Source: Tenuifilum thalassicum
GTDB lineage: Bacteria > Bacteroidota > Bacteroidia > Bacteroidales > Tenuifilaceae
Length of the DNA: 64,000 bases
Direction: 5' to 3'
Assembly: GCF_013265555.1 (NCBI RefSeq)
Contig: NZ_CP041345.1
Span: forward strand, 2,526,581-2,590,580
Made by a program: the position numbers and the translations under genes. The notes under the pieces are model-generated. The model made no database searches. It was not told where the DNA came from and saw nothing but the letters and a program-made list of their open reading frames with translations. How positions within the stretch are numbered: position 1 is the first letter of the stretch; each line of letters opens with the position of its first letter. Below are positions 26,568 through 34,346 of the stretch, one piece after another.

Positions 26568-26568
26568 G

Positions 26569-26641
26569 TGGTGCCACGTGGAATCGAACCACGGACACAA
26601 GGATTTTCAGTCCTTTGCTCTACCAACTGAGCTATGGCACC
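26569..26641 (-). tRNA. tRNA-Phe (anticodon GAA)
   Basis: The minus strand reads GGTGCCA TAGCTCAGTTGG..., a complete cloverleaf of 73 bases. The acceptor arm is GGTGCCA/TGGCACC, the D arm contains AGCTCAGTTGGTAGAGC, the anticodon stem-loop is AGGACTGAAAATCCT with GAA as anticodon, and the T arm is CGTGG-TTCGATT-CCACG. The discriminator base is A and the CCA tail is not encoded, so it must be added after transcription. No integrase or att duplication is seen beside it. Confidence 0.97.
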
Positions 26642-29259: not shown

Positions 29260-30789
29260 ATGGAAAAGCTGCCAAGTCGATGTAGAAGACTATTTTCTTT
29301 TACATTGATAATTTTAACACTAACCGAGATTTCGTGTAATGGACAGGATATGAATAAACCAAACCAACTCGACAGGCAGCCGGCTGTTGCTGGTCAGTTT
29401 TATCCCGATTCAAAAGCGTTGCTTGAAAAGGAGCTAAAGAGCTATTTTGATAGTGCTAAACAGACACTAGCTGAGCAGCCTTTGGCATTGATTGTCCCCC
29501 ATGCCGGATATGTCTTTTCCGGTTTAGTTGCCGCATCGGGCTATCGTCAACTCGATAGAAACAAGAAATACAAGCACATCTTTCTGATTGGGTCAAGTCA
29601 TACCATGTTTTTTAACGGTGCGGCAGTATATACCAAAGGAGCATTTATCACTCCCCTTGGGAGAATCCCCATTGACCCATTGGCAGAAAAGCTGGTTAAA
29701 GAAAACAGCATACTAACCGATAATCCGGAACCTCACCTAAAAGAGCATAGCCTTGAGGTTCAGCTACCATTTCTACAGTACTGGCTAAAAAAAGAGTTCT
29801 CAATAATACCAATTGTTATAGGAGGCGAATCGCAAACAACCCCTACCCTATTAGCTGAGGCTCTTGAACCCTACTTTACACCTGACAACCTGTTTATTAT
29901 TAGCTCCGATTTCTCTCACTACCCCAGCTACGACGATGCTAAGAAAACCGACGACGACATGGCTCACGCCATTGCTACGAATTCCCCTGTTGAATTCATG
30001 AAAGCGAAAATCCGTAATGAAAATGCAGGAATCGACGACCTGGCAACGGCCATGTGCGGTTGGACATCGGGACTTACCCTACTGAAAATTACAGAAAACA
30101 AACCCCAAATCAGCTACAAAACCATTATGTACCGCAACTCTGGCGATTCGCCTTATGGTGGAAAGGATCGCGTGGTGGGCTACTGGGCAATTGCAGCCGT
30201 ACAACAAGTCACACAAGGCAATGAGTTCAACCTTACCGATAGCGACAAGCACGAACTACTAATCCTGGCCCGCAAAACCATCACCAACCACTTAAATGGT
30301 AGGCCTCTTTACACACCCGATGAGGCTAAACTATCCGATGCGTTAAAAACTAATGCGGGTGCATTCGTAACTCTACACAACCATGGTAGATTAAGGGGAT
30401 GCATTGGAAACTTTTCTACTTCTACGCCGCTTTACAGGGTAGTAATGGCTATGGCCATCTCAGCTGCTACAGAAGATTATAGGTTCGAATCCGTTACTGC
30501 TGAGGAGTTAAAAGATATCGATATCGAAATTTCGGTACTTACACCTATGAAACGGATTAACCATGTTGAAGAGATAGAGCTGGGACGACATGGAATTTAC
30601 ATCAAGAAGGGGATACACTCGGGAACATTCTTGCCACAAGTGGCAAAAGAAACCAATTGGTCACTCCAAGAGTTTTTGGGACACTGTGCCCGCGATAAAG
30701 CAGGGATCGGATGGGACGGCTGGCGCGATGCCGAAATATACACCTACGAAGCCATCGTTTTCGACGAGAAGCAAATGGGATTAAGGTAG
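29260..30789 (+). CDS. Exported MEMO1-AMMECR1 fusion (AmmeMemoRadiSam proteins B and A)
   Basis: The product is about 509 residues from the ATG at 29260. An N-terminal export signal (RCRRLFSFTLIILTLTEISC) ends in a possible lipobox cysteine. The MEMO domain spans about 35-320: PAVAGQFYP, PHAGYVFSGLVAASGYRQL, GSSHT, EHSLEVQLPFLQYWL, SSDFSHY and ATAMCGW, covering the expected metal-site histidines and cysteine. The AMMECR1 domain spans about 330-505, with the diagnostic LRGCIG motif and LPQVAKE. In most organisms these domains are separate cytoplasmic proteins; here they are fused and carry a signal. The membrane synthase-like gene follows after 10 bases, then the radical SAM gene. The biochemical function of the system is not known to me. 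Confidence 0.88.
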   Translation: MEKLPSRCRRLFSFTLIILTLTEISCNGQDMNKPNQLDRQPAVAGQFYPDSKALLEKELKSYFDSAKQTLAEQPLALIVPHAGYVFSGLVAASGYRQLDRNKKYKHIFLIGSSHTMFFNGAAVYTKGAFITPLGRIPIDPLAEKLVKENSILTDNPEPHLKEHSLEVQLPFLQYWLKKEFSIIPIVIGGESQTTPTLLAEALEPYFTPDNLFIISSDFSHYPSYDDAKKTDDDMAHAIATNSPVEFMKAKIRNENAGIDDLATAMCGWTSGLTLLKITENKPQISYKTIMYRNSGDSPYGGKDRVVGYWAIAAVQQVTQGNEFNLTDSDKHELLILARKTITNHLNGRPLYTPDEAKLSDALKTNAGAFVTLHNHGRLRGCIGNFSTSTPLYRVVMAMAISAATEDYRFESVTAEELKDIDIEISVLTPMKRINHVEEIELGRHGIYIKKGIHSGTFLPQVAKETNWSLQEFLGHCARDKAGIGWDGWRDAEIYTYEAIVFDEKQMGLR

Positions 30790-30799
30790 CAAATAGCTC

Positions 30800-33217
30800 A
30801 TGAATTCACCATACTTTTTAATACCCATTTCCGTAGCCATAACACTTTTCTACCTGCTTGGCCGCATCCTTGTTCAGGCAGGGATTACTTCAACTACTAC
30901 CCATCGAAAATTCTGGAATTTCATTCTACTTTTTGTATTCTTAGGATGCTCAGTACTTGGCATCCTGCTAACAGTAAACATCAACTACAAGTTAGAATGG
31001 GATTTTATTAAAACATTACTGGCATGGCATGTTCAACTTGGTATTGCTATGAGTGTTATTGCTCTTATCCATACGCTTTGGCACAGCAACTACTTCAGCA
31101 AGTATTTGTCGATTAAACGATTTAAAACTTTCAGGAACGAAAGACATAACAAAAATCAACCCATAATTGCTGCCTTTACCCTTGGAGTGCTCTCCGTTTC
31201 CTTGCAGGTTCTTTTAATCCGACAGTTCACTAAGGTTTTTCAAGGAAACGAATTTCTAATTACCTGGACAATTGGCATCTGGATGATTTTATCGGGCGTA
31301 GGTGCATACCTTGGTAGCCGATCAACCAGCAACACAAATGAAACCAACAAGTTAGCTGTAAACGCCTTATGGTTCATGTATTTTTCAGCAGTCTTATTCA
31401 TCTTTCTATCAGGTGAAATCAAACAAACCTTTTTCCCATCGGGAGTGCTAATCCCACCTCACTACATAATTCTTATGGTAACGCTAATGATGGCCACAAC
31501 AGCTATCCCATCGGGCTTAACATATGCGTTACTTTCCAATCAGGTTAAATCAAAATACCCAACCATTTATGCATTCGAAGCATTGGGAAGCCTACTTGGC
31601 GGACTCTTACTTTCGCTTGTTATCATTTGGTTTTTAAACACATACCTGGCAGCAATTTCAATTGGAGTCATCGCAGGTATCATTCTAGCTTACCCCTATA
31701 ACAAAGCAGGAAGAATAATAATTCCTGTCGTAATTTTAGCCATAGGTGTTAGTATAAAAATATTTAATGCTGATATTTATGCTGAATCAATCCTCCTGCC
31801 AGGACAAAACATACTATCGGTAAGCGACTCACCATACGGCAGCCTTACGGTTACTGGCTCCGAGGATCAAATTAACTTTTTTGAAAATGGTTTGTTGCTT
31901 TTTAGCACGCAAAACACCATCTACTGCGAGGAAACCATCCACTACATCATGGCACAACGACCAAATCCCCAAAAAGTGCTACTGATCTCTGGCGGATACA
32001 CTGGACTAATTTCTGAACTTGAAAAGTACAGTCATGCTGAAATTGATTACATTGAGCCCAACCCGCACATATTAAAACTTAGCCAAAGGTTTTGCAGACA
32101 ACCTTCTTTACAGAATGTCAATATAATAAAAGGAAATGCTCGAAATTATCTGCGAAAATCAAAAAGCAGCTACGACATAGCCATAATTGCCTCCGCAGAG
32201 CCAACATCGATTGCACAGAACCAGCACTTCACGCTTGAATTTCTCAAGTTAGCTAAAAAATACCTAAAACCTTCAGGCGTTATAGGCTTTAACCTTAACG
32301 GTATTGGTAACTATCCATCGGCACCAAAGCTTAGAGCCTATACTTCGATTGTAGTTACGCTTAAAAAGGTTTTTAAACACGTTGAAGTTATAACTGGTGA
32401 GCGAGACTACCTTCTTGCTTCCGACAGCGCCTTAAGAATCGACATAGCTCAGCTTCTTACCGAGCGCCACATAGGCGACTCAAATCTATATGTTCGTCCC
32501 GATTACATTAACGACGAGCATATAGCTAAGCGAAACCAGTTCTTTCATGAACAAACAGTCACCCCCCAAAAGTTGAATACCGACAACCATCCCTGGCCAA
32601 TACTGCAGAGCACAATTGGCTACCTATCGATGTTTGGCAATAGGTTATGGCTTCTGTTTTCAATCGGGTTGGGAGTGCTAATCATCCCAATCGCTTTTCT
32701 AAAAAAGAGCACTCGCTCAATGTATGTAATAGGTTTTGCAGGATCAGCCATTCAAACACTTTATCTGCTCACTCTACAAGTTGGTGCTGGTATCCTTTAT
32801 GGAGCACTAGGCGCCATGATAGCAATATTCATGGGAGGTTTGGCAGGTGGTTCCTTATTGCATGATAGATCAAAGAAAGTTAACCCCCTCCATTCAAAGC
32901 TCCTTCTTATAGTTTCATTCATCCTTCTCATTTCACTATGGCAATTTATGCTAGGAATCCCCATTTGGTTGACAATAGCAATACTCTGTTTAGGAACACT
33001 TATGGCATCATTTGCCGTTGGCTACCTTTATGTTAACATCACAGGCAATGACGTGTCCGAACTTCAACCAGCAAAAACATATGCTGCCGACCTTTTAGGT
33101 TCGGCTACTGGCGTTGTAATTGTTACCCTATTGCTTGTCCCCTCTGTGGGATTCATTGCCACTGCAACCATTTTGGTTATTAGTGTAAGTTTATACTTGG
33201 TACTAAGCAAACTTTAA
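30800..33217 (+). CDS. Polytopic membrane protein with a spermidine-synthase-like domain
   Basis: The protein has 805 residues. About nine membrane helices (about 5-345) precede a soluble Rossmann-type domain (about 350-600), and about six more helices follow (610-805). The soluble part follows the spermidine synthase plan: DSPYGSLTVTGSED, FENGLLLFSTQN, VLLISGGYTG, IDYIEPNPHILKL. Key positions are altered: the G-G-G-D-G nucleotide loop reads SGGYTG and the YHE motif reads YCE, so ordinary aminopropyl transfer is doubtful. SAM-type ligand binding remains possible. It lies between the MEMO-AMMECR1 fusion (10 bases) and the radical SAM gene (4 bases), so it is a core member of this operon. Confidence 0.8.
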   Translation: MNSPYFLIPISVAITLFYLLGRILVQAGITSTTTHRKFWNFILLFVFLGCSVLGILLTVNINYKLEWDFIKTLLAWHVQLGIAMSVIALIHTLWHSNYFSKYLSIKRFKTFRNERHNKNQPIIAAFTLGVLSVSLQVLLIRQFTKVFQGNEFLITWTIGIWMILSGVGAYLGSRSTSNTNETNKLAVNALWFMYFSAVLFIFLSGEIKQTFFPSGVLIPPHYIILMVTLMMATTAIPSGLTYALLSNQVKSKYPTIYAFEALGSLLGGLLLSLVIIWFLNTYLAAISIGVIAGIILAYPYNKAGRIIIPVVILAIGVSIKIFNADIYAESILLPGQNILSVSDSPYGSLTVTGSEDQINFFENGLLLFSTQNTIYCEETIHYIMAQRPNPQKVLLISGGYTGLISELEKYSHAEIDYIEPNPHILKLSQRFCRQPSLQNVNIIKGNARNYLRKSKSSYDIAIIASAEPTSIAQNQHFTLEFLKLAKKYLKPSGVIGFNLNGIGNYPSAPKLRAYTSIVVTLKKVFKHVEVITGERDYLLASDSALRIDIAQLLTERHIGDSNLYVRPDYINDEHIAKRNQFFHEQTVTPQKLNTDNHPWPILQSTIGYLSMFGNRLWLLFSIGLGVLIIPIAFLKKSTRSMYVIGFAGSAIQTLYLLTLQVGAGILYGALGAMIAIFMGGLAGGSLLHDRSKKVNPLHSKLLLIVSFILLISLWQFMLGIPIWLTIAILCLGTLMASFAVGYLYVNITGNDVSELQPAKTYAADLLGSATGVVIVTLLLVPSVGFIATATILVISVSLYLVLSKL

Positions 33218-33221
33218 GGCC

Positions 33222-34346
33222 ATGAAAAAGATATCGCGGCGCGAATTTTTAAAACGCAGCCTTTTTACAGCAGGAGGCATAATGGCATTACGATATTTTA
33301 GCATACCAGCTTTTGCTTTCAACGACAAACCATGGCGTTGGAGTCGTGAGGCTATGTTCTACACTCCTACTGCACGAGGCATGCGTTGCAACCTCTGCCC
33401 AAATGAGTGCAATATCCGTCCAGGTGAAACAGGTGACTGTAGGAATCGCTTAAACCATAATGGTAAGCTCTATAGCATTGCCTATGGTAATCCCTGTGCT
33501 GTTCATATCGACCCAATTGAGAAGAAACCGCTTTACCATTACCTACCTGGAAGCAAGTCATTCTCAATAGCAACTGCTGGTTGCAATTTTGGATGCTTGA
33601 ACTGTCAGAACTGGGAGATTTCGCAGTCGAGCCCCAAGGAAACACGCAATGCCGAACTTTTCCCAGAACAGGTTGTTCAGCAAGCCATCCGTAATGGCTG
33701 CAAGAGCATCGCTTACACCTACTCGGAACCCATCACCTTTTATGAGTACATGTACGAAACTGCCAGAATAGCCAATGCCCATGGAATTGGTAACGTTCTA
33801 GTATCAAATGGCTACATAAATGAGGAACCGCTTCGGAAGCTAGCCCAGAGAATTGATGCCGCCAATATCGACCTAAAATCGTTTAGCAACGATATCTACC
33901 TTAAACTAAACGCCGGAACATTAGAACCGGTTCTTAACACACTACGCATCCTACTCGAGATGAACGTTTGGATTGAAATAACAAATCTAGTTATCCCCAC
34001 CTGGACCGATGATTTTGCTATGATAAGGAAGATGTGCCAATGGCTTGCAAACAACGGGTTCACAGAGTTCCCATTGCACTTTAGCAGGTTTTTCCCGCTC
34101 TATAAGCTAACGCAGCTTCCTCAAACGCCAACATCAACACTAATAAAAGCAAGGGAAATTGCACAATCGTGCGGACTAAAACATGTTTATATCGGCAATG
34201 CAGCCCTTCCAAGTGCGGGTGACACCCTTTGCCCGGCTTGCGGAAAGACAGTGATAGAACGTAAGGGCTTTAACGTCACTATTACTAACCTAAAAGATGG
34301 CAAGTGTAAATGGTGTGGTAGGGCTATTAATGGAAGATGGGGGTAA
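33222..34346 (+). CDS. AmmeMemoRadiSam radical SAM enzyme with a Tat signal
   Basis: The protein has 374 residues. A textbook twin-arginine signal opens it: SRREFLKRS (R6, R7), then a hydrophobic stretch ending IPAFAF near residue 30. The radical SAM cluster motif is CNFGCLNC (C121, C125, C128; CX3CX2C). An N-terminal cysteine group lies at MRCNLCPNEC and GDC, and the C-terminus has a zinc-ribbon-like CPACG...CKWCG. IDLKSF and a TNLVIPTWTDD stretch fit the AmmeMemoRadiSam/PflA-like family. Tat export implies the protein folds with its cluster in the cytoplasm and then crosses the membrane, which is unusual for a radical SAM enzyme. It is the last gene of the operon. Confidence 0.9.
   Translation: MKKISRREFLKRSLFTAGGIMALRYFSIPAFAFNDKPWRWSREAMFYTPTARGMRCNLCPNECNIRPGETGDCRNRLNHNGKLYSIAYGNPCAVHIDPIEKKPLYHYLPGSKSFSIATAGCNFGCLNCQNWEISQSSPKETRNAELFPEQVVQQAIRNGCKSIAYTYSEPITFYEYMYETARIANAHGIGNVLVSNGYINEEPLRKLAQRIDAANIDLKSFSNDIYLKLNAGTLEPVLNTLRILLEMNVWIEITNLVIPTWTDDFAMIRKMCQWLANNGFTEFPLHFSRFFPLYKLTQLPQTPTSTLIKAREIAQSCGLKHVYIGNAALPSAGDTLCPACGKTVIERKGFNVTITNLKDGKCKWCGRAINGRWG

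Follow-up and report, generated by a model that had tools for sequence, protein, structure and literature searches.

The window examined here is a 64,000-nucleotide stretch of the Tenuifilum thalassicum genome (contig NZ_CP041345.1, positions 2,526,581 to 2,590,580 of the forward strand), a genome of 3.2 Mb in one contig. Positions 29260-34346 of the window are spanned by three reading frames on the plus strand that encode a fusion of MEMO and AMMECR1 domains, a polytopic membrane protein of the major facilitator superfamily (MFS) type with an inserted spermidine-synthase-fold domain, and AmrS, a radical S-adenosylmethionine (SAM) enzyme. An earlier sequence-only reading of this DNA had named the three products as a MEMO-AMMECR1 fusion, a polytopic protein, and a radical SAM enzyme; our coordinates and frames match those it gave, and both profile matches and translations agree with its identifications. 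The MFS gene lies between the other two with intergenic gaps of only 10 and 4 bases, and therefore the three genes very probably constitute one operon. Promoter and terminator scans around the operon yielded results at chance level, as did the Bacteroidetes -33/-7 promoter pattern. The features of the locus are given below in window coordinates, with the basis for each.

29260..30789, plus strand: MEMO-AMMECR1 fusion (AmmeMemoRadiSam B+A), 509 aa; TIGR04336, TIGR04335, PF01875, PF01871
29260..29334, plus strand: predicted Sec lipoprotein-type signal MEKLPSRCRRLFSFTLIILTLTEIS, before Cys26; sequence, and homologous signals in relatives, many ending in Cys
29374..30195, plus strand: MEMO domain, metal-site residues H81/H114/C266; alignment to MEMO1 7kq8
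30253..30762, plus strand: AMMECR1 domain, LRGCIG motif; profile match and alignment of homologues
30800..33217, plus strand: polytopic MFS-type protein with inserted spermidine-synthase-fold domain, 805 aa; PF01564, NF037959, AlphaFold 2
31805..32629, plus strand: spermidine-synthase-like domain with a substitution of the catalytic Asp, predicted to be periplasmic; Foldseek, VIA, charge bias, alignment
33222..34346, plus strand: AmrS radical SAM enzyme, 374 aa; TIGR04337, AlphaFold 2
33222..33317, plus strand: predicted twin-arginine translocation (Tat) signal MKKISRREFLKRSLFTAGGIMALRYFSIPAFA, A-x-A site before F33; TIGR01409, AlphaFold 2 model
33582..33605, plus strand: CX3CX2C [4Fe-4S] cluster motif C121/C125/C128; sequence, aligned with pyruvate formate-lyase (PFL) activating enzyme

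The genes are adjacent and all three AmmeMemoRadiSam domains exceed their curated cut-offs, with MEMO scoring 229.7 bits (TIGR04336, cut-off 26), AMMECR1 172 bits (TIGR04335, cut-off 99), and AmrS 352.9 bits (TIGR04337, cut-off 220).

Export signals and active sites of the two soluble proteins

The N-terminus of the fusion, ...LTLTEISC/NGQD, comprises by eye an n-region, a hydrophobic stretch, and a lipobox containing Cys26, the lipobox being non-classical due to an E at -3. The leader is likely of the lipoprotein type, with lipidation at Cys26, which refines the N-terminal export signal first proposed for this protein. In the MEMO domain, H81, H114, and C266 are invariant among 8 exported homologues and correspond to H49, H81, and C244 of human MEMO1 in the alignment to 7kq8. 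These are the metal ligands of the human protein, which binds iron or copper (PMC11081632). Human MEMO1 differs in being a single-domain protein without a signal, whereas MEMO in the window is fused to AMMECR1 and is predicted to be exported. The AMMECR1 domain, which is the only one encoded in the genome, retains its LRGCIG motif. A separate MEMO-like protein without AMMECR1 but with its own lipoprotein signal is encoded at G000:C1:2800680-2801258 on the minus strand (L009). It is 47% identical to the product of a gene close to the module in another genome (L120:13538-14701), a similar gene is also found near the module in L146, and proteins of this type may constitute a separate exported MEMO family.

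As for AmrS, the segment SRREFLKRS occupies residues 5-13, and the first 60 aa score 18.0 bits against the NCBI curated model TIGR01409 TAT_signal_seq (cut-off 16.7). Both this match and the A-x-A site agree with the classic twin-arginine signal described in the sequence-only reading, whose CX3CX2C motif at C121, C125, and C128 is likewise exact and intact. In the AlphaFold model (predicted local distance difference test, pLDDT, 92.8), the leader forms a separate helix (residues 6-25) followed by a low-confidence linker, beyond which is an ordinary radical SAM fold. No other radical SAM reading frame among the 24 of the genome has a twin-arginine motif, which together with the conservation of the leader in relatives argues that the leader is more than a chance resemblance. 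The genome also encodes TatC (E 1.6e-53), as well as a second, leaderless AmrS at G000:C1:875421-876395 on the minus strand, which is 46% identical to the operon AmrS and has neither MEMO nor AMMECR1 beside it.

Membership of AmrS in the radical SAM superfamily is indicated by the cluster motif together with its SAM-site residues. E169, K219, and H286 align with the SAM site of PFL-activating enzyme and are invariant or nearly so in exported and cytoplasmic AmrS alike, while eleven core cysteines (four N-terminal, three in the cluster, and four C-terminal) are invariant in both. Judged by these residues, neither AmrS nor MEMO shows any sign of being a dead enzyme. The closest solved structure found by Foldseek is PFL-activating enzyme itself (3cb8/3c8f; E 1.3e-15, target-length template modelling score 0.81), with which the cluster motif, DLK, and His align, whereas the N-terminal four-Cys element, the C-terminal CxxC..CxxC ribbon, and the Tat signal are particular to AmrS. 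The likeness is in fold only, as AmrS scores 54.4 bits against the glycyl-radical activase family TIGR02493, which has a cut-off of 231.75.

The MFS/spermidine-synthase protein

The polytopic nature ascribed to the middle protein is borne out by its AlphaFold model (pLDDT 88.6; predicted template modelling score 0.89), in which ten membrane helices are followed by a soluble domain and then a further seven membrane helices. Short homologues lack the first three helices and the core helix count is 7+7. In addition to PF01564, the protein marginally matches NF037959, 'fused MFS/spermidine synthase' (40.6 bits versus a cut-off of 40). Its membrane part (residues 113-805) has the MFS fold, aligning with NarK (Z 22.8 over 337 residues, root-mean-square deviation 3.8), SV2A (Z 22.3), and FLVCR1 (Z 21.4). 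This relation stems from a second structural alignment (VIA), as the Foldseek top list included no MFS match, while the soluble domain matches the spermidine synthase 1uir (Z 27.5; Foldseek, VIA).

In MFS proteins, both termini are cytoplasmic. With seven helices per half, this would place the domain between the halves on the periplasmic side. Predicted cytoplasmic loops are also richer in K+R than the other loops (means of 15.0 and 1.3, respectively) in 74/74 homologues, and the same positive-inside bias holds for each half separately. The MFS-derived topology and the charge bias agree independently, and the predicted periplasmic placement of the spermidine-synthase-like domain is a new finding. 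While its fold is that of the NF037959 family and the aminopropyltransferase 1uir, the middle protein departs from both in this predicted location, in the position of the domain between two MFS halves, and in the replacement of the catalytic Asp of the D-x-x-D-P motif, which is A in the window and N in most of the family. From this replacement and a further substitution in the nucleoside site (N446, discussed below), the middle protein is probably not a polyamine-making enzyme; that the domain might bind SAM or SAM products is a guess.

Leaders and gene associations across genomes

The survey encompassed 395 Bacteroidota genomes, 148 genomes from the phylum to which a Desulfobacteraceae relative belongs, and, from named genomes, the 80 best relatives, which come from Bacteroidales, Ignavibacteria, Desulfobacterota, Elusimicrobiota, and a few archaeal metagenome-assembled genomes. 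Leaders were called by our own motif-plus-hydropathy rule, except at sixteen loci that were read and assigned manually, and the counts are our own rather than those of SignalP. The arrangement of the module is conserved in Bacteroidota, Ignavibacteria, and Desulfobacterota, and the leaders are kept across phyla at 40-80% AmrS identity, with none on the paralogues in the same genomes. Wherever a leadered AmrS had a MEMO or AMMECR1 partner with a readable N-terminus, that partner was signal-bearing (66/66), and leaderless AmrS was paired with leaderless MEMO in 13 of 19 cases. The sequence-only reading had asked whether R-R is kept whenever MEMO has a signal: the leaders are indeed paired, at 66:0, but the motif in most homologues is K-R. 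Its remark that the module is usually thought cytoplasmic holds for one branch, but not as a generality, since both branches are common.

Within the Bacteroidota survey, an MFS/spermidine-synthase gene adjoins leadered AmrS in 7/7 instances and leaderless AmrS in 0/53. Nine Desulfobacterota genomes have a module of AMMECR1, MFS, and AmrS genes with no adjacent MEMO, and eight of these encode a signal-bearing MEMO elsewhere, seven of the eight carrying a separate leaderless MEMO copy as well. No recurrent fourth gene was found near the module, only scattered neighbours. Several loci depart from the usual arrangement: both signals appear to have been lost in L165; MEMO (in L240 also AMMECR1) has a transmembrane anchor beside a leaderless AmrS in L237, L238, and L240; and eight Desulfobacterota loci (L236, L241, L242, L243, L245, L250, L251, and L265) have Tat-leadered AmrS of other subfamilies, for which no adjacent MEMO, AMMECR1, or MFS gene was found.

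The leaders of 99 leadered AmrS follow the pattern [ST]-[KR]-[RK]-x-F-[LI]-[KR], where F occurs in 97 of them, S or T precedes the pair in 78, and in 98 there is no more than one charge within the 12 residues after the pair. As read from the residues, this is the Tat consensus, apart from the first residue of the pair being more often K. In L172 and L173, a plain transmembrane stretch replaces the motif of AmrS, and neither genome has a TatC match; the same is true of TatC in two of the three genomes with membrane-anchored MEMO and leaderless AmrS (L237, L238, and L240). Overall, TatC was not found in 4/8 module genomes without the AmrS motif versus 6/66 with it (Fisher p 0.0096), but many module genomes are incomplete and the absence of TatC where the motif is missing is therefore only suggestive.

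A further feature of leadered AmrS emerged from a sister clade, a single group of 22 AmrS proteins from Bacteroidota and Desulfobacterota (Shimodaira-Hasegawa-like approximate likelihood ratio test 100), nearly all of which are found in an operon of AmrS, MEMO-AMMECR1, and MFS genes. An insert is present in 17 of them:

L299, L304-L314, L316-L319, L321: AmrS with N-terminal CxxCH and second His, between Tat-like leader and radical SAM core

The second His follows 12-17 residues after the CxxCH, and the C, C, H, and H are invariant in all 17, whereas the intervening residues are variable. Of the remainder, the insert is missing entirely from four, and in one the first Cys is replaced by Y; the site is likewise absent from the window AmrS. 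The Ccm and Ccs systems attach haem c outside the cytoplasm. By its sequence the insert looks like a haem-c site, which is a new finding, though four such residues (CCHH) could bind zinc instead. A haem there would both confirm an extracytoplasmic location and offer an electron route to the cluster. A CxxCH in the C-terminal ribbon of AmrS was dropped as evidence, as it also occurs in leaderless proteins and is consequently uninformative; only the N-terminal CxxCH was counted.

Elsewhere in the window, a tRNA-Phe (gaa) gene lies at 26568-26641 on the minus strand, beneath a spurious 112-aa reading frame.

Proposed location and chemistry of the module

Radical SAM enzymes need both SAM and low-potential electrons, which as far as known are cytoplasmic; the class has always been studied in that compartment, and we know of no established case of a radical SAM enzyme outside the cytoplasm. 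No exported or periplasmic radical SAM enzyme turned up in searches of the open full-text literature. To our knowledge, none of the Tat-exported iron-sulphur proteins, such as the Rieske proteins, is a radical SAM enzyme. These do share with AmrS the combination of an iron-sulphur protein and a Tat signal (PMC7317946). With cytoplasmic AmmeMemoRadiSam (TIGR04335/TIGR04336/TIGR04337), the window module has in common its three domains, the cluster and SAM-site residues of AmrS, and the metal site of MEMO, but it differs in that both soluble proteins are signal-bearing, MEMO and AMMECR1 are fused, and there is a dedicated MFS/spermidine-synthase partner. The abstract of Burroughs et al. 2019 reportedly connects Memo with the modification of nucleotide bases and isoprenoids and broadens the range of its gene contexts. 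AMMECR1, MEMO, and the radical SAM protein are brought together in PMC7159879, which cites that study for 'Memo-Ammecr1 systems'. The extracytoplasmic form of this known and widespread module appears to be new.

The proposal of the sequence-only reading that the whole set is built for the periplasm is supported at the level of sequence by the pairing of leaders (66:0), the unlinked signal-bearing MEMO (8/9), and the periplasmic mapping of the middle-protein domain. From such evidence, we consider it very likely that the module is located outside the cytoplasm, and the operon probably encodes an extracytoplasmic form of the AmmeMemoRadiSam module that comes together at the periplasmic surface of the inner membrane. 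MEMO-AMMECR1 would be exported by Sec and retained on a membrane as a lipoprotein, such that its active sites would face the periplasm; AmrS would fold and receive its iron-sulphur cluster in the cytoplasm prior to export by Tat; and the two extra helices of the MFS-type protein would swing its spermidine-synthase-fold domain to the periplasmic side. Whether AmrS then performs SAM-dependent radical chemistry outside the cytoplasm seems evenly balanced, with the retention of the cluster and of residues aligned with the SAM site, as in cytoplasmic relatives, arguing in its favor. Given the resemblance of AmrS to glycyl-radical activases, candidate substrates would be a partner protein, on which a radical would be placed, or a membrane lipid. 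More tentatively, the MFS/spermidine-synthase protein might handle SAM or its breakdown products, either by supplying SAM to AmrS or by retrieving methylthioadenosine, 5'-deoxyadenosine, or methionine, with the spermidine-synthase fold serving for binding rather than aminopropyl transfer. Electrons could come from periplasmic carriers, and for the one sister clade it is about a toss-up whether they would pass via a haem c built into AmrS. That all of these hold jointly, namely an exported AmrS, a dedicated MFS protein for SAM supply or product clearance, and haem-c electrons in one lineage, is doubtful.

Several results weigh against this reading. Six loci combine a signal-bearing MEMO with a leaderless AmrS. 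The gain and loss of leaders needs ~6 changes on the AmrS tree, so the association reflects a small number of deeply conserved lineages, not a large number of separate events, and a Fisher p of 4e-11 overstates it; with 2-3 phylogenetically independent pairs, there are too few to test. Across 102 leadered loci, the pair is KR in 56, RR in 33, and RK in 11, with a plain transmembrane stretch in 2, and TIGR01409 matched only the RR ones among ten leaders (5/10, three at or above the cut-off). Lysine substitution is described as poorly tolerated in model Tat systems (PMC7317946), and Tat export of the KR and RK members is consequently less sure than that of the window AmrS. TatC is found in 43/44 Bacteroidota with leaderless AmrS; its presence thus does not discriminate, and its co-occurrence was rejected as evidence. 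In the spermidine-synthase-like domain, a nucleoside-site Asp conserved in 97% of the family is N446 in the window protein, which weakens the case for a SAM-binding role in this organism. Lastly, periplasmic SAM has no established source.

The last of these points also bears upon what we consider a possible, albeit less favored, explanation, namely that the module is exported but AmrS is no longer radical SAM-active, its cluster serving instead for electron transfer or for metal delivery to MEMO. The haem-c-like site of the sister clade would suit electron transfer, and the binding of iron or copper by human MEMO1 (PMC11081632) would suit metal delivery, but the SAM-site residues and all 11 core cysteines of AmrS are kept as in its cytoplasmic counterparts and the module includes a second protein of SAM-related fold. 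It is improbable that the leader is only a membrane anchor, with AmrS on the cytoplasmic face meeting MEMO-AMMECR1 only through the membrane protein. This is what the KR pair of most homologues, poorly used by model Tat systems, and the plain transmembrane stretch of L172 and L173 would suggest, yet both of these genomes lack a detectable TatC, the leader in the window scores above the cut-off of the curated Tat model and includes an A-x-A site, and the full S/T-K/R-R-x-F-L-K pattern is kept. A lipoprotein-like MEMO-AMMECR1 with its active sites facing the periplasm and the CxxCH haem-c-like site on AmrS of some relatives fit an anchor poorly as well.

Still less probable is that AmrS acts upon some substrate in the cytoplasm before Tat export, with export being merely delivery. 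Tat substrates do fold and gain their cofactors in the cytoplasm (PMC7317946), where SAM and electrons would be available, but MEMO-AMMECR1 would leave unfolded via Sec and AmrS could therefore not act beforehand on its folded form. Finally, an ordinary cytoplasmic set with misread start codons might be suspected from the leaderless AmrS elsewhere in the genome. Such an origin is hardly credible and is refuted, as far as sequence allows, by the conservation of the leaders across phyla and by the leaderless state of the paralogues that those genomes encode.

What MEMO, AMMECR1, and their radical SAM partner do has been an open question for years, even though MEMO1 and AMMECR1 are relevant to human disease. 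An exported module would narrow the search for substrates to those that are periplasmic or membrane-bound, would turn location into a genetic switch through the use of tat mutants, and would add two testable parts to the system, the MFS/spermidine-synthase protein and the haem-like site.

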